Below are positions 22,209 to 49,041 of a stretch of 64,000 nucleotides of DNA, piece by piece. How positions within the stretch are numbered: the first letter of the stretch is position 1; each line of letters begins with the position of its first letter. A program made the position numbers and the translations under genes. Origin of the DNA: Harmothoe impar (taxonomy: Eukaryota > Annelida > Polychaeta > Phyllodocida > Polynoidae); assembly GCA_947462335.1 (NCBI GenBank), contig OX381720.1, forward strand, positions 47,666,981 through 47,730,980, in the 5' to 3' direction. The notes beneath the pieces were generated by a model. The model did not search any database, was not told where the DNA came from, and saw only the letters and a program-made list of their open reading frames with translations.

Positions 22209-22498
22209 ACCGTGGCCTGTGTGCAGATTCTTCATGTCTTATAGGATGTTAAAGAGGGACTGAAACCATGACAACTGCTTTCCTCCTCCAAGTAGACTGC
22301 ACCAGTGGTACCACCATATTGTGTTGGGTATGCAGGGGGTTGTGTCTGGTCCAGACGTATTACCAACACCTGTACAGGTGCCCTCAGCTCTCAGCATGAC
22401 CCAACTATAGCGAAGACCACTCTCTGCCTCTTCGTACCAACACCACATGTTTTTTCCACGGCCACATCTCTTCTGTGACGTCACATCCACATGGAGGC
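22209..22498 (+). other. Probable 5' untranslated part of the coding exon
   Basis: The pyrimidine-rich acceptor CTATTTTTCAG ends at 22208. The following 290 bp hold several short upstream ATG frames. In the frame of the main protein a TGA lies at 22397-22399. The last upstream frame is ATG GAG GCA TGA at 22491-22502, whose stop overlaps the main start codon as ATGA. Confidence 0.45.
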
Positions 22499-24487
22499 AT
22501 GACGTCACGGTTTGTGTGGCTCTTCCTGTTCATCCTGTTGGACACTTCAATAGATTGGACGCGAAGCATGAACTTTCATAGAATCCTCCTACCCGCTGGG
22601 GATCCCGATATTGATCGGCCGGTCAGGGACAGACGAAATGTTGATCGCAACTTTGATAGCCTCCGCATGAAAGATATGGACAAGGTGGGGCTTGCGAATG
22701 ACAGTGACACAGAGACTGTGACAGTGAGAAGCAATATGACAGCTGCCAATGCAAGTGAGTATGTGATAAGTAGTCCGGCTGAGGAGAGCGCTGACGCACC
22801 CACTCACCTAAAGGAGTGCAATCCTTGTGTGGTATGGAAGCCTCCCAAAGAAGACAGCGAGGATGAGACATACCACCCTAACCTCACTATCATTCCCATG
22901 GGTGGCATATTCATGTTCCTAACTGGTATTATATTCAGTTTCATCAGCTGGTGCACTGAAGACCTTCGCATGGATGATGAGCGATTTATGAAGATCAGCG
23001 TTCCGATTTATCTGTCGCCCAATGGATCACCGCTCGCCACTCCTGCTAAGCATCATGCTCTTCGTGGAGTACATCATAGGAGATCGTCTATCAGTGTTTC
23101 CCATACAAAGTGCATACAAAAAGGCAGGGTTGGTGTAGAGGATGATATTGCCTCCAATATTGATGAAACAACGAGTGAGGACAATACCGTCATATACCAT
23201 GACATTGGTGCAGAACCTCCTCCTGTTGCCGCCTGTAGTAGAGGCATCAGTAGACGCATGTCCCAGAAAATGGGCCTCAACCGCTCTCCAAACAGATACC
23301 TTAGACGCCAGTCACTAAATTCTTCCAACACAACTTTAAGCAGTGCATTTAGCTCAAGATCACCATCGGTGCGAACTCGCAACATTGGCTTCCAGAATTC
23401 CCAAGAGTGTACCTCGCCTTCTTCGTTGAGCTATAGCCATGCCGATTCTTACCTCGATATTACCCCACTCATATGTCATTCCACGTCATCAGAGACACCC
23501 TTCACACAGCGAAAGTTGGCTTTCCACACACACCTCCTCACACCACCCCTCCTCCATTTCCAAGTTTCTAGTATGAACACATCAACCACCAGTTTAGCAG
23601 AGTCCATACCCTCACTAACCTCCAAACCTAGCATGTCTGACTCAGCTATGACTGAGCAGATGTGTATAAGTGAGGACAATGAATCATGTGGTTCCGAGGG
23701 TGCTTGCAGTAGTAGCCGTCTCATTCGGCAGTCGTCTCACAAAAGTGGGATGATGCTCCTGTCGGGCAGCTACTATGAGGATCCGCTCATCCTCCAATGC
23801 AGCTATATGGAGGTGGATGAGACACTTGAACCAAGCTCAGAACCAACCATCTTTACTTGCGGTTCACGGTCCCCCTCTCCAGAGTCTGTTCTCGATGATA
23901 CTGACAGCTCCGCTAAACGGACATTTGGTGGAGAACCCAGCAGCACAAACTGCACACAGAATGGTGTTGATGACAGTCGTGGTGAGGATGTGCATACTCA
24001 CCTGTTAGAAGGCTCAGATATGAGTGACTGTAACTCTGAGACTGGACTAACAGAGAACCAGGAGGGTGAAGAGGAGTTCCCCAAAGGTTCTGAAAGTACC
24101 TCATATTGTTCCAGCCCTGGTGCTTATCGCGGCATGGATCCTTCGGTATACTACAAACTGTCTGTGGAGTCCAATGCTTCCACAGGGTCTTTACAGTCCC
24201 CTGAATCTATGCAGTCCGACTCCAACTCTGTTTGTTCGAGTGAAGTGGCACTCTTACGAAGAGTCAACCCTTCAGTTACCCTGCGTGCGCTCAATGCCAA
24301 GTCTCATACCCCAAGACGAGAGAGGGTAAGCCTCAACGGTGTGACTTACTTCAGTCAACATGGCGGCCGACGAATACAGAATGGGAAGGTAATGCGCATG
24401 TGCAGATCATGGTGTCTGGGAGATAAAGCCAGTGCCGTATATGGACAGTTTCGTCGTGGGCAAATAGAGAAGGAGTGTTACATGTGA
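22499..24487 (+). CDS. Unrecognised single-pass membrane protein with long Ser-rich tail (662 aa)
   Basis: I do not recognise this protein. The start is the first in-frame ATG (22499), 102 bp downstream of an in-frame stop. Residues 5-14 (FVWLFLFILL) form a short signal-peptide-like hydrophobic stretch. Residues about 24-128 would be lumenal or extracellular, with three N-glycosylation sequons (N79, N84, N128) and a CNPC pair at 107-110. Residues 131-151 are a clear membrane segment (IIPMGGIFMFLTGIIFSFIS). The remaining 510 residues are low-complexity, rich in Ser, Glu and Thr with Arg-Ser patches (HHRRSSIS, RRMSQK), consistent with a disordered, phosphorylatable cytoplasmic tail; the C-terminus is basic and Cys-containing. 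This suggests a type I adaptor-like membrane protein. The 2-kb frame is uninterrupted and uses balanced codons, so I think it is a real gene. Confidence 0.75.
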   Translation: MTSRFVWLFLFILLDTSIDWTRSMNFHRILLPAGDPDIDRPVRDRRNVDRNFDSLRMKDMDKVGLANDSDTETVTVRSNMTAANASEYVISSPAEESADAPTHLKECNPCVVWKPPKEDSEDETYHPNLTIIPMGGIFMFLTGIIFSFISWCTEDLRMDDERFMKISVPIYLSPNGSPLATPAKHHALRGVHHRRSSISVSHTKCIQKGRVGVEDDIASNIDETTSEDNTVIYHDIGAEPPPVAACSRGISRRMSQKMGLNRSPNRYLRRQSLNSSNTTLSSAFSSRSPSVRTRNIGFQNSQECTSPSSLSYSHADSYLDITPLICHSTSSETPFTQRKLAFHTHLLTPPLLHFQVSSMNTSTTSLAESIPSLTSKPSMSDSAMTEQMCISEDNESCGSEGACSSSRLIRQSSHKSGMMLLSGSYYEDPLILQCSYMEVDETLEPSSEPTIFTCGSRSPSPESVLDDTDSSAKRTFGGEPSSTNCTQNGVDDSRGEDVHTHLLEGSDMSDCNSETGLTENQEGEEEFPKGSESTSYCSSPGAYRGMDPSVYYKLSVESNASTGSLQSPESMQSDSNSVCSSEVALLRRVNPSVTLRALNAKSHTPRRERVSLNGVTYFSQHGGRRIQNGKVMRMCRSWCLGDKASAVYGQFRRGQIEKECYM

Positions 24488-41135: not shown

Positions 41136-41385
41136 AGGGGATGGCCATGCTCAATTTCAACTTGCCTGAGGGGGGACCAAAAACAATTAGATAGAGTGAT
41201 AACATGCTATCTGGTTATTAAATAAAAGTAGTCAGTTTAGTGAGAATCAAGCAAGATGGCGGCACAAGGCTAGAAGCGTGTGAGAAGGGCTCCGAGGAAA
41301 ATCGTCGAAAAGACCAGTCTAACAAGAACTGAGAAAGGAGATATTTGGTATATAGGTGTATAAGAGTATCAAGAACAAGATTAAC

Positions 41386-43032
41386 ATGGCGAATCAAGGC
41401 AGAACCAACCGGAGAGGAGGAGACGACCTTCTTAAAGCGGGGGCGTCAACGGCCGACGTAGTGACTGCGGTAAATGAACTAGCTAGGCGCTTGACAGCGC
41501 AGGAGGCCACTGCTGTCACCCTTCAAGGTGAAGTCAACACTATAAATCAAACGCTTCTTGGAGTTGCTGAGACTAACAGACAGACGTCCGAGACCTTAGC
41601 GGGTCTTCTCAAGAAACTCGACGGGCAGGACCATGTCTTATCGGGAATATCTGATACCTTGAGCGAGACCGAAAATGCCATGAAGAAGATTAATGTCAAC
41701 GCCATGGCGCAGACCCGGGTCCTCACCAACCACAATTTGGCTTTTGAGAAAATGGAATATCAGGACAAGAAGAAGGTATTTGTAATCGAGGGGTGCCCAG
41801 AAGACGCAAATGAAAATTTATTGTACATAGTGACGAGGCTGTTTAAAGACTGTAACGTAGAATTCGGCCCAGAAATGATCGATACGGTAGAAAGGATTGG
41901 AACTCTCCACAGGGGGAGGCGGAACGACAACAACAACCAAGATGGCGGCGCCCATGCGGCCGCTTCCGGTAAGACGAGGACAGTGAAAGTGACTCTCTTA
42001 AAACCGAATTACAAGGCGAAATTAATGAAGAATCTTGGTCTGCTCAAAGGGAATGGATACTGGCATGGCTGCTCTATCGGTGATGATTTAAATGACAATG
42101 AAAGACGTCAGTTTCTTGATCTGCGCGCCATGTTCTACCTCGCAAGGGACAGCAACATGGACTGTAGGCTTCGCCAACGGTCAGTGATAATCAATAGGGT
42201 ACCGTACTTGCACCAGCAGTTATCAAACCTCCCCCACCCAGAGCTCACAATGGAATTAGCCACCACGATTCGCACCCCGGACGGGATATTATTCAGATCT
42301 TCCCACAACAGGCTTTCAAACTTGTATCCATGCGTGATTAAATCAGAAGGAGTAATGTACAATTCTGTCGAACAAGCCTTCCAGGCACAGAAAGCTACTG
42401 TATGTGGAAACCAAGAGGCTCTAGATGTCATAATGTCACTATCAGATCCATATCGGATTATGTCAGAAGCCAAGAAGATCACGGTAAACCACGACTGGGC
42501 CAGAGACGCTGAGAAGTACATGTACAAGTTCAACAAGATCAAATTCAGCCAGCCTGAACTGAAGGACTATCTAATCAGCACCAGGGGTCATCTCTATGAA
42601 GCAAGTTTCCACCCCATCTGGGGGTCTGGCTTCCATTTAGGACAGTCAAGACAGTGTAAACAAGAAAACTTGAGATGTGAGAACCTACATGGACTGCTCC
42701 TTGAGCGCCTCAGGAGGGAGCTGTCTCCCCCAGCAGATGACCCTCAAGATGGAAATGACAGTCAACAGGGCGACAATGGCAGTCAACAGGGCGACAATGG
42801 CAGTCAACAGGGCGACAATGGTAGTCAGCAGGGAGATAATGGTGTTCAACAAGGCGACAACGTCAACCAACAGGGTGTAAATGGGGACATTCAAACCCAA
42901 GGCAATGACCAACCAGCAGATGTACAGACAGGCCAGAACATTCCACCTGTGGGAGGCGGGGGCGCGCCCAGGGGTCAAGTCAACAACCAAGCGCGACAAC
43001 AAGTCCTGCAACCACCGCCAGTAGTAACCTAA
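41386..43032 (+). CDS. LINE ORF1 protein: coiled coil, RRM-like part, NADAR domain (548 aa)
   Basis: The start is ATG 41386 (AACATGGCG). Residues about 25-125 are predicted helical, coiled-coil-like, with heptad-type Leu/Val spacing. Residues 129-235 (KKVFVIEGCP ... GCSIGDDLNDNER) match the pattern of an ORF1p RNA-recognition fold and C-terminal region. Residues about 302-445 read as a NADAR (YbiA-like) domain: FRSSHNRLSNLYPC, then YNSVEQAFQAQKA, W371, and near the end LYEASFHPIWGSG, which match the family's conserved SN, E-QAQKA and EA-WG-G signatures. Residues 459-500 repeat SQQGDNG about four times (21-bp DNA repeat). NADAR proteins are N-glycosidases acting on riboflavin intermediates or ADP-ribosylated guanine (established for some members). 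A role in retrotransposition is unknown. Confidence 0.85.
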   Translation: MANQGRTNRRGGDDLLKAGASTADVVTAVNELARRLTAQEATAVTLQGEVNTINQTLLGVAETNRQTSETLAGLLKKLDGQDHVLSGISDTLSETENAMKKINVNAMAQTRVLTNHNLAFEKMEYQDKKKVFVIEGCPEDANENLLYIVTRLFKDCNVEFGPEMIDTVERIGTLHRGRRNDNNNQDGGAHAAASGKTRTVKVTLLKPNYKAKLMKNLGLLKGNGYWHGCSIGDDLNDNERRQFLDLRAMFYLARDSNMDCRLRQRSVIINRVPYLHQQLSNLPHPELTMELATTIRTPDGILFRSSHNRLSNLYPCVIKSEGVMYNSVEQAFQAQKATVCGNQEALDVIMSLSDPYRIMSEAKKITVNHDWARDAEKYMYKFNKIKFSQPELKDYLISTRGHLYEASFHPIWGSGFHLGQSRQCKQENLRCENLHGLLLERLRRELSPPADDPQDGNDSQQGDNGSQQGDNGSQQGDNGSQQGDNGVQQGDNVNQQGVNGDIQTQGNDQPADVQTGQNIPPVGGGGAPRGQVNNQARQQVLQPPPVVT

Positions 43033-43861
43033 TTGAATGAGTGTATAAATAATCCAAGACTCCTTGTATGCTTCTGTTTAAAAGGTTATTTAATCTCAAT
43101 CTAATTGTTCATTAATTTTTGATTTAACTTGCTCATTAATACTGTTTAACTTAAACATTATATTCCCAAGGCTGTGGTAGGAATTATTATTTTAGTTCAA
43201 ATCTCACTGTTTAGTATACAACTTCAGGACGAGCTGAAATGTACGGACGCTACCGGTAATTCTTGTTCTTGTTTAATAGATTTAGTTAATAGAATTATGT
43301 TACCACCAGATTGAAATAGATGTGTATGCTACCGGTAAATGAAAAGTTAAGCTCATTTAATCTAGTGTACATTCCTGATTGTGAAGTTCTTTTGATTTAA
43401 TCTAAATTGCTACCGGTATTCGAGCAGCTAAGTTCATCTAATCTATATTCTTGATTGAAATGTACTAGCGCTACCGGTAATTCTAATTCTAATTCTAATT
43501 CTTGCTCTTGTTTAATAGATTTTGTTAATAGAATTTTGTTACCTTCAGACTATAACCTGAAAATGATTGAAATAGTATCTTGTTGTGTATGCTACCGGTA
43601 AATGAAAAATCAAGCTCATTCAATCTAGTTTATATTTCCGATTGAGAGGTTATTTTGATGTACTCTATTGTAACGATACCTGGCTACACCAAATGGTCAG
43701 AGTATTTGAGAGATTAATTATTAGGAGTTGATGTAGGGATTTTGATATTTCTTAGGAGCAATTTCACCTGCCGAGCCTATAATAATTCATGTTCAGCTTA
43801 GGTGGCCATAAGAGCCGTATACCTTTGCAGGGGGGTTTAGGGGGATATATATTGAATCTGA
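43033..43861 (+). other. LINE ORF1-ORF2 spacer with five GCTACCGGTA motifs
   Basis: An AT-rich spacer of about 830 bp. GCTACCGGTA occurs at 43249, 43328, 43409, 43470 and 43591. Flanking text is also duplicated: TCTTGTTTAATAGATTT-GTTAATAGAATT occurs near 43262 and 43502, and AATGAAAA-T-AAGCTCATTxAATCTAGT near 43337 and 43600, so a segment of about 220 bp is present twice, diverged. It could be an internal promoter, a translation-initiation element or a protein-binding site. Confidence 0.6.
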
Positions 43862-46294
43862 AACCAGGGTATATTCAATCAACATGTGCGAAGAGGGATA
43901 AATCTAGTATCCCAGGTTGTAAAAAAGCAAAACGAGACAGGCGAGGTACCTAATTTTAAAAAGGGATTTTCCTTAGTCCACTTAAATGCTAGAAGTGTCA
44001 GAAATAAAACTGTATCAATCAAAACAGAACTTATGTGTAGAGATATTGACATTGTCATGTTTTCCGAGACATGGCTAAATGACACAGACGAAGATGGTTT
44101 ATATTCTTATCCTAGATACAATTTATTTAGGCACGATAGAGTTTCAATTTATAGAGGTGGTGGTCTATGCGCTCATGTCGATGAAAATATAACTTGTTCA
44201 ACTGAAAAGTTTAAATTACTTAATAGATGTAATGACGACATAGAAGTTCAATGGTTGTACTCTATAAAAGGTACCGGGAAGGATTCCTTAATTTGTAACT
44301 TGTATAGACCACCAAATGGTTCTCTTTTGACCTTTTGCCAGACCATGCGGGCTCTTTTTATACAAATTGATGATATACACAAATATGATGTCTACATTAT
44401 TGGAGATTTTAATGTTAACGTGTTAAATGACACGCCTGAAAAAAGGCAGCTTTATGAGGTCATGGATGAATTTAATTTGACACAACTGATAAATGAAGTT
44501 ACCACTACGTCTGGCACTAATACGTGTATAGACTTAATATTCTCAAGTTCAACTGATATTATAGCCAGTGGCCCTTTAAATGTCCACTTAAGTGACCATC
44601 TCCCTGTCTATCTGATAAATAGGCAGGTACATGTGAAAACCACATACAGGAGTTTTAGAGGCCGATCATATCGTAATTTAAATATGATTAATTATTTGAA
44701 TGACATTGAAGAATATGATTGGGGAACTTTTGATGAGTCTCAGAACCCGACAGAGTGTTGGGATATATATGTGAGTGTACTAACAGACATGTTAGAAAGA
44801 CAATGCCCTGTAAAAGACTTCAAGGTGCGCGACAAAAATGATCCTTGGATGTCTCACTACTTGCTGGAGCGAATTACTGATAAAAATGACTTGTTATACG
44901 AGGCCAGACACGCTAAGGATATAGTCACCTGGCATCGTGCCAGAGCCTTAAAAAATGAAGTTAATCTTGAATTAGTTAACGCTCGTAATACATACTATAC
45001 TGAACTCAGTGAGGCTCATTATAGAGACTCAAAAAAGTTCTGGTCGGTCTTAAAAGAGGTGATACCCTCAAGCAAGAGTGGAAAAAAATCCATTAATATA
45101 GTAAATGGTGATGGTGGGACGATCCTAAAAAAAGACACAGCTACTTTTGTCAACAATTTTTTCGCAGAAATTGGACCTAAACTGGCTGAATGTCATAATG
45201 TCCCTTTTGAATTTAAGGGTGAACGCTGTGATGTTGACATGCCTGACCCTGTGTACTCTGATGATGAAATAATAGAATGTGTTAGGAATTTGGATGTGAC
45301 AAAGTCCTCTGCGTTAGAGTATCTACCTACAAATATATTCAAGCAGGCTGTTCTGAAAAATCCTGAGCGGTTTTGTAAAATAATTAAGTTGGTAGTCTTG
45401 TCTTGTGAAATTCCAGATTCTTGGAAAATAGCTACTGTGACCCCCCTCCCTAAGGGGGGGGACCCAACTAATGTCTCTAATTTTAGGCCAATCAGTGTTC
45501 TACCTGTACCAGGAAAAATATTAGAAAGATTAGTTCATACTTCCATTTCGACTCACCTGGAAATAAATTCAATTCTTTCAAAAAAACAAGGAGGTTATCA
45601 AAAATGTAAATCAACACTAGATACAATAAGCGTTTTGATTGATGATATTTTAATTAATAGGAATAAAGGTAATATTACAATGGCGGCCTTTATCGACATA
45701 AAAAAGGCCTTTGATTCGGTAAATTTCAAAATTCTATTAAAAAAATTGGAAAATTATGGTATTCGAAATCGAACTCTAACACTGATAGAAAATTACCTCT
45801 CAAGAAGACAACAGTGCACAGTAGCTAATAACATTAAGTCAGCATATGTAAAGCTCAAGTGTGGAGTCCCCCAGGGATCCATACTAGGCCCCTTATTTTT
45901 TCTAGTTTATATAAAAGATCGCATTTTACCTGAAGACACCCACAGCACTTTACTTTACGCTGATGACTCTGTCTTGTATGTTTCTGGCAAGGATATAGAT
46001 AGCCTCTCAAGGAGAATTTCGGCAGCTTTAGAAACCTTTTATAACTGGACTAGTATAAATAAGTTAACAATGAATGAGGAAAAAACCAAAATTATGACTT
46101 TTGCATCAAAAATAAAACTTGGGAGGCTACGAAAACCTACAATCCGCTTAAATAATAAAATATTGATGAATGTAGTCTCCTATAAATATTTGGGAGTAAT
46201 TTTAGACGAGGAATTAAATTTCTCGTTCCATATAAAAAACTTAATCAAGAATCTCAGGTTTAAATCTGTATTATTGTGTCTAAAGAGGTCATGA
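43862..46294 (+). CDS. LINE ORF2: APE endonuclease and reverse transcriptase (frame-shifted near end)
   Basis: Open from 43862, after a TGA at 43859-43861. No ATG lies in frame before the endonuclease; the first in-frame methionine is already inside it, so the start is unclear. Endonuclease: LVHLNARSVRNK, FSETWLND, IIGDFNVN and, near its end, LSDHLPV. Reverse transcriptase: NFRPISVLPVPGKILERL, GGYQKCKSTLDT, AFIDIKKAFDSVN, CGVPQGSILGPLFFLVY and the catalytic YADD at 45956-45967, then SYKYLGVILDEELNF. It performs target-primed reverse transcription. The frame ends at TGA 46292, but the expected C-terminus continues in another frame. The catalytic residues are intact. Confidence 0.9.
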   Translation, partial: NQGIFNQHVRRGINLVSQVVKKQNETGEVPNFKKGFSLVHLNARSVRNKTVSIKTELMCRDIDIVMFSETWLNDTDEDGLYSYPRYNLFRHDRVSIYRGGGLCAHVDENITCSTEKFKLLNRCNDDIEVQWLYSIKGTGKDSLICNLYRPPNGSLLTFCQTMRALFIQIDDIHKYDVYIIGDFNVNVLNDTPEKRQLYEVMDEFNLTQLINEVTTTSGTNTCIDLIFSSSTDIIASGPLNVHLSDHLPVYLINRQVHVKTTYRSFRGRSYRNLNMINYLNDIEEYDWGTFDESQNPTECWDIYVSVLTDMLERQCPVKDFKVRDKNDPWMSHYLLERITDKNDLLYEARHAKDIVTWHRARALKNEVNLELVNARNTYYTELSEAHYRDSKKFWSVLKEVIPSSKSGKKSINIVNGDGGTILKKDTATFVNNFFAEIGPKLAECHNVPFEFKGERCDVDMPDPVYSDDEIIECVRNLDVTKSSALEYLPTNIFKQAVLKNPERFCKIIKLVVLSCEIPDSWKIATVTPLPKGGDPTNVSNFRPISVLPVPGKILERLVHTSISTHLEINSILSKKQGGYQKCKSTLDTISVLIDDILINRNKGNITMAAFIDIKKAFDSVNFKILLKKLENYGIRNRTLTLIENYLSRRQQCTVANNIKSAYVKLKCGVPQGSILGPLFFLVYIKDRILPEDTHSTLLYADDSVLYVSGKDIDSLSRRISAALETFYNWTSINKLTMNEEKTKIMTFASKIKLGRLRKPTIRLNNKILMNVVSYKYLGVILDEELNFSFHIKNLIKNLRFKSVLLCLKRS

Positions 46295-46776
46295 GCAATG
46301 CTTCTCTTCTAAAAGTCTACAAATCACATGCATTACCCATTATTGATTATTGTGACGTTGTGTACAGTGGAGGTAACAAGGATCTATTGGAAGAACTACA
46401 GCGAGTCCAAAACAAATGCCTGAAAACTTGCTTTGGTGTTCATGTCCTAACTCCTACAGATTTCATACATGCTCAAGCCAAATTGCCTTTGTTGAAGTTT
46501 AGAAGAGAGTATCACACGAGACTTTATGCTTTTAAAAGGTCAAAAAAGGACAATTATGTTCAAAAAAAGGTCCGTCACACAAGATTATCTGAGGCACCCT
46601 TACTAAAGTATTCTCACATCCACAGTGCTTCGTATGAGAGATCAATTGAGGTAATGTGTGGACGGGAATGGAATGCCCTTAATGTTAAGACTCGAGGTAT
46701 AGAAGATTTGGTGGAATTTAAAAAGGAAATGAAAACCCTTCTAGACAAAACCATACCGGTACTAGATGCTAATTAA
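46276..46776 (+). pseudogene. LINE ORF2 C-terminal part, displaced by one frameshift
   Basis: It encodes the typical tail of this LINE group (YKSHALPIIDYCDVVYSG, LEELQRVQNKCLKTCFG, then a basic region and WNALNVKTR). It overlaps the end of the reverse-transcriptase frame by 19 bp in a different frame, so a small indel lies at or just before 46276-46294. Otherwise uninterrupted to TAA at 46774-46776. Confidence 0.8.
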
Positions 46777-47125
46777 GTTTCTAGGCTTTGATCGAATTCT
46801 ATGTTCTTCAAGACGTAGATTGGGGGGGGGGAATTAATTTAATTCAATTTAATTATGAGTACGATGTTTATTGACTGAATGTGCCTTCATCTTGCCTGAA
46901 AGAACTGTTATTTTTCATGACTCCTATGGTGGTGAATCTGGCTGCACCAACAAACAGATTTCTGACGGGTGCAGTCAGAAACTTATTGGTTGAATAGAGA
47001 GAATTTACCTGATCTCATATGTCCTTAGGAACGTATTTTCTATACAAGGCGATTTATATTGGATATTCACAAAGGACTGAGACACATGTATGTCATCATT
47101 GTAACAGTCATAAAAAAATCTGACC

Positions 47126-47155
47126 AATAAAGTTGATTCTTGTTCAAAAAAAAAA
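47126..47155 (+). terminator. LINE poly(A) signal and A tail
   Basis: AATAAA at 47126-47131 is followed 15 bp later by A10 at 47146-47155, as expected for the 3' end of a reverse-transcribed polyadenylated transcript. The boundary is inferred. Confidence 0.5.
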
Positions 47156-47967: not shown

Positions 47968-49041
47968 ATGGCAGCCAACATTACAGCCCTTTCCATCATG
48001 GATGATGTGAAGGAAGCATTAACAGAAGAGCTGACAAACCTGACCACCCTCTGCAACTCTACTGAAGACCATGTGGGCAACTCTACCAACTCCTCCCCTG
48101 GTTCAGCATGTGACTCCTTCACTCCAGTCAGAAGAAACCTGATACCTTTTGGTCTGTCAGTCATGTATGTTGTGTTTATTGTCACTGGTATCTCTACCAA
48201 CATGGTCAATGTGTTCACCCTGAGGAGGCTGAAGAGAGGCACCATGAATGTGTATCTGGCGGCTATTGCCTGCTGTGACATTCTCTTCTGTGCCTCCCTG
48301 GCCTCCTCATTGATGCTCCTCATGGTAGGGTACTTCTATAGCTCCTGGTACAATGCTATCCATCTGTATTTCTGGGTAATCATCATGCATATCACCCCCG
48401 GGGCTAGTATCTGGATCACCATTGTCATTGCATTTGATAGACTGATGGTCGTAAGCCACCCTCTCAAGGCCAAAGTGTGGTTAACCATCTTTAGGGCTAA
48501 GATTATTGTTCTGGTTGTGGTATTGGTGAATGTGCTGGCAAGGGTGCCCTATGGGTGGCTGTACAAGCCAATGAGTGGGGAGATAGAGCCAGGGGTATAT
48601 GTCTACTGGTACAGTTGGACGCCGCTTATGCGGGCAAACTTTGGGCAGATGTATGTTTACATAACTGTCATTCTGTTTGAATATCTCCCAGTATCTATCT
48701 TGGTTATCTGCAACCCTCTGATTGTTGCAGCCTTGGCCAAACAGCGCAAGAAGAGGGTTGAATTGTTTGGGGATGCTGGTGCAGCTAACTGTGCTAAAGC
48801 TCAATCCCATGATTCTGAGTATAGGATGACTGTGCTTCTGATTGGGGTGTGTATACAATCCATCACATGCAATCTGCCTCTCTCAATAACTCGCTTTGTC
48901 TACTCAAATGCACCACGTAGTGGGCTGGTCATCAAAAACATTGCAAATTTGCTGTACATCTTTGATCGCTGTGGCAACTTCTTCATCTACTGCATCACCA
49001 ACCCAGACTTTCGCAGAGCAATGTGGAAGAAGGCAACATAA
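47968..49041 (+). CDS. Rhodopsin-like (class A) GPCR, orphan peptide-receptor type (357 aa)
   Basis: A plasma-membrane receptor coded by one exon. The acceptor CTTACAG ends 23 bp before the ATG (context AAAATGGCA). The N-terminus has five N-glycosylation sequons (N4, N24, N30, N38, N41) and no signal peptide. Seven hydrophobic segments follow: TM1 about 58-84, TM2 95-121 with LAAIACCD, TM3 132-157 ending in DRL instead of DRY, TM4 178-196, TM5 225-256, TM6 287-311 with CNLP in place of CWxP, TM7 320-341 with NFFIY in place of NPxxY. The cysteines that normally link TM3 to the second extracellular loop are both missing. The layout recalls invertebrate FMRFamide/peptide receptors, but the ligand cannot be assigned. 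No frame lesion, so probably functional. Confidence 0.88.
   Translation: MAANITALSIMDDVKEALTEELTNLTTLCNSTEDHVGNSTNSSPGSACDSFTPVRRNLIPFGLSVMYVVFIVTGISTNMVNVFTLRRLKRGTMNVYLAAIACCDILFCASLASSLMLLMVGYFYSSWYNAIHLYFWVIIMHITPGASIWITIVIAFDRLMVVSHPLKAKVWLTIFRAKIIVLVVVLVNVLARVPYGWLYKPMSGEIEPGVYVYWYSWTPLMRANFGQMYVYITVILFEYLPVSILVICNPLIVAALAKQRKKRVELFGDAGAANCAKAQSHDSEYRMTVLLIGVCIQSITCNLPLSITRFVYSNAPRSGLVIKNIANLLYIFDRCGNFFIYCITNPDFRRAMWKKAT

Follow-up and report, generated by a model that had tools for sequence, protein, structure and literature searches.

The ORF1 protein (ORF1p) of a LINE retrotransposon in the polychaete Harmothoe impar carries a NADAR domain, and the same domain recurs in copies on many chromosomes that are joined to the same ORF2. 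Nearly all of these copies preserve the active site, and the genome holds several further kinds of ORF1 with a NADAR of their own. From the kept catalytic residues, removal of ADP-ribose from LINE RNA or cDNA would be the simplest reading of what the domain does. That it is a working N-glycosidase on the LINE ribonucleoprotein (RNP), clearing ADP-ribose from guanine in LINE RNA or cDNA, is a proposal on which we would wager evenly.

Architecture of the element

The element lies in the window, the whole 64,000-nucleotide stretch of DNA that was analysed, and comprises the following features.

41253..47145, forward strand: full-length LINE element of 5.9 kb, followed by a poly(A) tail at 47146-47155
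41386..43032, forward strand: ORF1, 548 aa from the first ATG at 41386, in an open frame of 558 codons (41356-43032)
41449..41751, forward strand: predicted long coiled coil, a single helix (residues 22-122 of the 548-aa model) whose block pLDDT peaks at 76 and drops below 50 at the helix end
41773..42084, forward strand: predicted RRM-like domain, modelled in the order strand-helix-strand-strand-helix-strand with moderate to low confidence
42085..42267, forward strand: CTD-like region of ORF1p, a conserved block that is 48-60% identical in outside relatives and divergent copies
42301..42723, forward strand: NADAR domain (PF08719 match, alignment to 8bau and YbiA, fold match)
42733..42879, forward strand: low-complexity ORF1 tail of 21-bp (7-aa) repeats, with six overlapping 42-nt copies at a spacing of 21
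43033..43861, forward strand: non-coding ORF1-ORF2 spacer of about 830 bp, with repeated blocks (direct repeats D2, D4, D5 and D10) and GCTACCGGTA motifs
43862..46294, forward strand: ORF2, endonuclease and reverse transcriptase (RVT_1 at 115.7 bits, over its cut-off; Exo_endo_phos at 21.6 bits, just under the cut-off of 24.5)
46276..46776, forward strand: C-terminal part of ORF2 in another frame, after one frameshift in the window copy near 46276-46294

Both ends of the element are defined by comparison with other copies. Homology to seven of them (L005, L006, L007, L008, L014, L018 and L020) starts at 41245-41252, and AAGATGGCGGC is the 5' end shared by the window and four other copies, each with different flanks. 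At the 3' side, three copies (the window, L041 and L042) end in common with AATAAAGTTGATTCTTGTTC-A(n) and diverge beyond it, which places the end at 47145. A target-site duplication of 7 bases or more was not found for the window copy; the poly(A) tail and the many dispersed copies are those of a LINE. The AAGATGGCGGC at the element start (41253-41263) resembles a YY1 site, like the one near the start of human L1.

The predicted secondary structure of ORF1p fits the order of coiled coil, RRM and CTD found in Type II ORF1 proteins, with no Pfam match over cut-off for these parts and none at all for the RRM-like part; the CTD label itself would hold by analogy to L1 ORF1p. The model of the full protein is weak overall (mean pLDDT 54.5), and the long helix, the strand and helix order of the RRM-like part and the NADAR core are visible in it. 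Both parts of ORF2 are contained in a single open frame in the relatives L034, L035, L036 and L038. The ORF2 has what we assume to be a Jockey-group look, and PDB searches with it do not separate LINE clades.

Several side observations concern the same stretch. Five GCTACCGGTA motifs, counted by eye, lie in the spacer at 43250-43600, where blocks recur at a spacing of 221-263 bp; these motifs and repeats have a possible regulatory or internal-initiation role. An in-frame ATG before the endonuclease is absent from the ORF2 of the window copy (43862-44040) and of L035, and a Met stands shortly upstream of the endonuclease in L034, L036, L037 and L038. Just downstream of the element is a GPCR-like open frame at 47968-49041 (7tm_1, 63 bits), and an open frame of 695 aa at 22400-24487 has hydrophobic stretches, is otherwise serine-rich and lacks a Pfam match.

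Identity of the NADAR domain

A first-pass annotation of this DNA had proposed a NADAR domain inside ORF1 from three motifs, and these (RLSNLYPC, YNSVEQAFQAQKA and LYEASFHPIWGSG) do occur there in the order listed. The Pfam NADAR profile, PF08719, spans residues 316-456 with E = 1.4e-18 and 68.1 bits against a cut-off of 35.1, which as a sequence match is far beyond chance. In the coordinates of the window the match covers 42301-42723, so that the annotated limits of 42286-42720 were correct to within a few codons. Searched against the PDB, the single ORF1 sequence retrieved no NADAR; a profile made from the window protein and four relatives reached the Phytophthora nicotianae (Pn) NADAR 8bau at 1.2e-13 and Escherichia coli YbiA (2b3w) at 1.6e-4. 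A 173-residue piece was also modelled, with a mean pLDDT of 64, core blocks at 81-97 and a poor C-terminal part. In a Foldseek search with this predicted model the top two of 20 PDB matches were again 8bau (E 5.7e-4, probability 1.00) and 2b3w (1.6e-3, probability 1.00), and from the third match onward none was significant, the next having an E of 1.9. Two of the checks that had been suggested, an HMM search and a structure prediction, thus agree, as PF08719 scores over its cut-off and two NADARs are the only structures that match the model significantly.

Copies in the genome and linkage to ORF2

The domain is far from a single-copy oddity, the outcome that would have counted against the first-pass annotation. 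In the 1.51-Gb genome, at least 79 ORF1 matches were found (the window included) at 43-100% identity when the best of 4012 candidates were scored, with copy L020 split over at least two of them. By a count made by eye, 75 of the 79 span the NADAR, reaching residue 457 or beyond, and 58 are free of internal stops. At a threshold of 80% identity, the thirty copies that were fetched group into nine clusters, and none of six relatives taken from other public sources exceeds 56% identity to any of them. Two of the copies, L030 and L031, are 99.8% identical over the 3088 bp compared and lie on different chromosomes with different 5' flanks. As far as sequences can tell, the LINE group of the window is large, diverse and recently active. 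Searches with an ORF1 profile found no relatives among collections of viral contigs or genome contigs, and a search with ORF2 found none among viral contigs.

That the domain belongs to the ORF1 of a LINE, as had been annotated, is upheld by the ORF2 that follows other NADAR-bearing copies. In 5/5 fetched regions the same ORF2 (66-77% identical) lies downstream of ORF1 in the same order and orientation; four of these ORF2s are open and uninterrupted, at 947-1002 aa, and the fifth is truncated where the stretch ends. A genome search with ORF2 gave at least 57 matches (the best 56 of 18553 candidates were scored), and in 30 of the 57 a listed ORF1 lies upstream on the same strand at a distance of 0.7-1.8 kb (one copy is split in two, and its second piece lies at 2.4 kb). 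From the 27 without a listed ORF1, eight with a stop-free ORF2 match were examined upstream, and five of these also have NADAR ORF1 sequence: L049 has almost all of ORF1, split over two frames, L047 and L048 have a large part of the NADAR, and L043 and L044 have only its end. None of the eight regions has a recognised ORF1 without a NADAR, and three have no recognised ORF1 of any kind, a count in which a very different ORF1 would escape notice. It might be supposed from the spacer of about 830 bp, and from an ORF2 that, in the window copy, lacks an in-frame ATG upstream of the endonuclease, that ORF1 and ORF2 come from different elements or that their fusion is an artefact of assembly. Given the constant order and orientation in the five regions, in the 30 matches and in five of the eight examined among the remainder, spread over many chromosomes, such a chimera has a negligible probability.

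Conservation of the active site

Catalytic-pocket residues align with those of the characterised NADARs 8bau and YbiA, the comparison with YbiA being one that the first-pass annotation had proposed. The Pn enzyme served as the alignment reference, with residue roles as given in PMC11543638, and the key residues of the window protein (E339, K346, K373, W381, E415, H419 and W422) are numbered from the codon at 41356. The Pn residues E43, K50, W89, E125 and W133 correspond to E339, K346, W381, E415 and W422, so that the window domain shares with 8bau and 2b3w the fold, the pocket residues E, K, W and W and the second glutamate (E125). The differences are that no LINE ORF1p is joined to either of those proteins and that some contacts to ADP-ribose have changed: the loop that bears the adenine-stacking Y84 in Pn is shorter by two residues, R79 is replaced by K373, D130 (a water-mediated contact) by H419, and R93 is not kept (A385), these three being contacts in one enzyme and not all family-defining. 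Owing to these altered contacts, the substrate may not be exactly ADP-ribosyl-guanine.

Across 45 genome copies, E339, W381 and K373 are present in 45/45, E415 and W422 in 44/44 and H419 in 42/44, the missing row being L014, whose frame ends before residue 415. Position 346 is K in 39 copies, R in five and Q in one. The arginine is that of a subgroup (L055, L056, L060, L061 and L062); in a bacterial NADAR, the substitution K95R is reported to retain activity in vitro and to lose toxin rescue (PMC11543638). The six outside relatives include one with A at 415 and another with Y at 422 beside an apparent frameshift, and both look like decayed copies. The kept residues are those described as needed by a bacterial NADAR for guanine de-ADP-ribosylation or toxin rescue (PMC11543638). 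The same paper assigns to the YbiA subfamily those NADARs with a glutamate at the position of Pn E125, and this is what E415 provides in all 44 copies with sequence there.

Purifying selection on the domain

Ratios of nonsynonymous to synonymous substitution (dN/dS, Nei-Gojobori) were estimated from 14 disjoint pairs, with 95% bootstrap intervals over codons. The NADAR gives 0.051 (0.037-0.069), the CTD 0.021 (0.010-0.036), the RRM 0.066 (0.040-0.098) and the N-terminal coiled coil 0.118 (0.086-0.158), and the ORF1 tail is the least constrained part at 0.255 (0.186-0.347). When overlapping pairs are grouped by divergence, the NADAR lies at 0.04-0.10 and the tail at 0.27-0.42. In 15/15 further, more divergent copies, the NADAR is the part of ORF1 closest to that of the window (53-60%); in an alignment of seven proteins (A2), the CTD is conserved more than the NADAR, with mean pairwise values of 0.59 vs 0.52. 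Purifying selection had been named in advance as something to look for, and by these estimates the NADAR is under strong purifying selection. Because match score decided which copies were taken, decayed ones are under-represented among them. Together, the presence of the domain across copies, its aligned catalytic residues and this selection argue against mere use of a remnant fold.

The same evidence bears on the idea that the NADAR only adds structure to ORF1p, or rides along as a passenger, and has no function involving ADP-ribose. ORF1 proteins of known LINEs do tolerate other appended domains, such as PHD and esterase (PMC4120745). Here, however, the active site hardly varies from copy to copy, and the dN/dS of the domain, 0.051, compares with 0.255 in the adjoining tail, which makes a passenger very improbable.

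Other ORF1 types and the origin of the domain

The NADAR is not confined to the family of the window. A genome search with PF08719 scored 150 of 3484 candidates, and every one of the 150 exceeded the cut-off, at 88-178 bits; the frames that contain them measure 128-1331 aa and are spread over many chromosomes. The same search was positive in 3 of 14 control genomes. Four stand-alone NADAR frames score 150-178 bits, one at C19:3.415 Mb (L066) and three clustered at C21:30.06-30.08 Mb (L067-L069), and these are likely host genes.

Seven sampled ORFs (L070 and L072-L077, on C1, C2, C8 and C5) represent types B-H beside the window family, type A, with one or two copies read per type and types G and H related to each other. 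Each of B-H has a NADAR Pfam score of 90-109 bits. Downstream on the same strand, B, D and F have a Pfam match over cut-off to an endonuclease or a reverse transcriptase, and E has an endonuclease match under cut-off; Pfam detects neither in C, G and H, and G and H have no ORF2 in the fetched stretch. By BLAST, types A, B, C, D and E have ORF2 pieces that are alike (27-34% identity), and the piece of F is nearly unrelated to them, with a single D-F match at E 0.008. Six of the eight types (A-F) are thus linked to a LINE ORF2, and these ORF2s fall into two widely different kinds. An extra ORF, esterase-like by eye and without a Pfam match at E 0.01, lies between the NADAR ORF1 and ORF2 in L072 (4704-5582) and L074 (1305-2099).

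The part of ORF1 that precedes the NADAR is similar in several pairs among B, C, D, E, G and H (E 4e-4 to 2e-41). That of A has marginal similarity to G and H only (E 0.002-0.003), and that of F has none to the other types at E 0.01. Since these regions are alike in most types and not in F, shared descent for most, with a separate gain or exchange for F, would fit the sequences. In a tree of 30 rows, 10 of 27 inner branches are starred and 8 open, which leaves the relations between ORF1 types unsettled; family A is a supported clade, and the presumed host NADARs stand beside those of phages and not beside those of LINEs. Phage NADARs reach up to 33.8% identity (best 25 of 306 phage records), phrog_1017 matches the domain at 5.8e-24, and a homologous protein search with the NADAR alone found two LINE-like relatives among 19 candidates.

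In the copies read, all eight types retain the counterparts of E339, K346, W381 and E415. Other positions vary: that of R79 is E, S or D in types B and D-H, a tyrosine takes the place of W133 in type E and a phenylalanine in type G, and the following glycine is absent from C, G and H. The changes at W133 and at the glycine, with H419 for D130 and K for R79 in the window family, are what might be expected if the domain were a non-catalytic reader of ADP-ribose or of ADP-ribosylated partners (e.g. PARP-modified proteins) that guides the RNP or the integration complex. The residues of hydrolysis (E43, K50 and E125 in Pn) are nevertheless kept in the sampled copies of all eight types and nearly always across copies that are 43-99% identical, more than binding alone seems to need, and we hold a reader to be quite unlikely.

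Relation to known systems

The first-pass annotation left open whether such a fusion had been described, and this caution was apt. PMC12477816 reports a NADAR in the Pol of Ectocarpus Gypsy elements and devotes one sentence to NADAR-like ORF1 proteins in several Tx1 LINE families of Crassostrea gigas; as a role it proposes that RNA intermediates are processed. The oyster elements resemble the present one in having a YbiA-family NADAR inside the ORF1 of a LINE, and the Ectocarpus elements in having one inside a retrotransposon protein, there Pol (PMC12477816). What that single sentence covers for the oyster is here extended by a genome-wide search, a selection test, an active-site census and the linkage of ORF1 to ORF2. 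The fusion of a NADAR to LINE ORF1 has therefore been published before; on how widespread it is, how selection acts on it and how well its active site is kept, nothing was found in the open-licence literature searched. Besides PMC12477816, the titles listed in searches of that literature included no other report of a NADAR in a retrotransposon, and one may exist elsewhere. Neither NADAR nor DUF1768 is mentioned in the main text of PMC4120745, on LINE ORF1 modules, and NADAR does not occur in the main texts of PMC11203168 (gastropod LINEs) and PMC10294476 (bivalve LINEs). NADAR homologues are described from several eukaryotic groups and not from chordates (PMC11543638).

Extra modules in LINE proteins are known from other lineages. 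LINEs of the CR1/L2 group have an esterase or PHD in ORF1, with domain shuffling between lineages (PMC4120745), and TRAS LINEs have a viral helicase (PMC5563155); in contrast to these modules, the NADAR belongs to a family of ribosyl N-glycosidases. Closer in biochemistry are the DarT1-associated NADAR antitoxins, which share the domain and its conserved E and K. They differ in that their K115 (Pn K75) aligns with M369 of the window protein and that the third residue of the latter is Glu (E415), not Asp (D171) (PMC11543638). A DarT-type partner was not found in the element either: no second gene matches an ADP-ribosyltransferase, and the Pfam matches over cut-off in its long frames are the NADAR and the reverse transcriptase only.

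Proposed function

By analogy to L1, the coiled coil would multimerize ORF1p, and the RRM and CTD-like region would coat the LINE RNA. The tethered NADAR could then hydrolyse ADP-ribose from guanine, or a similar nucleic-acid ADP-ribose adduct, in LINE RNA or nascent cDNA. The mark would be placed by a host enzyme, and its removal would keep the template readable for the reverse transcriptase. That nearly all copies examined retain the active site suggests that the element has to reverse a chemical mark, carried by its own nucleic acid or by a host signal.

A host signal could be a small molecule. The NADAR may act on free ADP-ribose derivatives, cyclic ADP-ribose-like signals or NAD-type RNA caps that the host makes against foreign RNA, and not on LINE nucleic acid. 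YbiA, which has the same fold, acts on small riboflavin intermediates (PMC11543638, PMC9503650), soluble targets are argued for phage NADARs and considered for viral NADARs generally in PMC9503650, and the altered adenine-side contacts allow another substrate. Set against this, the copies examined have the domain fused to an ORF1p that contains an RRM-like part, and a substrate on the RNP is thereby favoured; we regard a small-molecule target as unlikely. Riboflavin metabolism itself was put aside as a function because the NCBIfam profile of the riboflavin N-glycosidase, TIGR02464, gives 61.5 bits, below its cut-off of 73.7, and because the NADAR is fused to ORF1p.

Removal of ADP-ribose from LINE nucleic acid can be extended to the history of the lineage, more tentatively. 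The NADAR would be a core module of LINE ORF1 in this lineage, repeatedly gained or exchanged and found with at least two nearly dissimilar kinds of ORF2. It would have stayed catalytically intact because hosts mark retroelement RNA or cDNA by ADP-ribosylation of guanine (or a similar modification) as an innate defence and the RNP carries the eraser. We consider this extension possible, if doubtful. If true, it would be a retroelement counterpart of the conflict between DarT and NADAR in bacteria and phages. Scabin-like proteins, which we take to be guanine ADP-ribosyltransferases of the pierisin kind, gave 0 candidates in a search of the genome with PF22596, a search that was also positive in 0 of 14 controls and so carries no weight as evidence of absence. 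ZAP is catalytically inactive. It is a PARP-family protein that restricts human retrotransposition (PMC4441479), and a guanine-modifying activity, CARP-1, is reported from clams (PMC11209040). Neither ZAP nor the clam enzymes show ADP-ribosylation of a LINE.

LINE ORF1 is usually described as binding and chaperoning RNA, and to our knowledge few roles are known for ADP-ribosylation of RNA or DNA in animals. The comparisons made here build, from sequence, a strong case that an enzyme of the ADP-ribose-removing kind is a working part of the machinery of whole LINE families, and they make a function of ORF1 directly testable. A dedicated eraser kept by retroelements would point to a defence based on nucleic-acid ADP-ribosylation and would offer a direct route to finding it.
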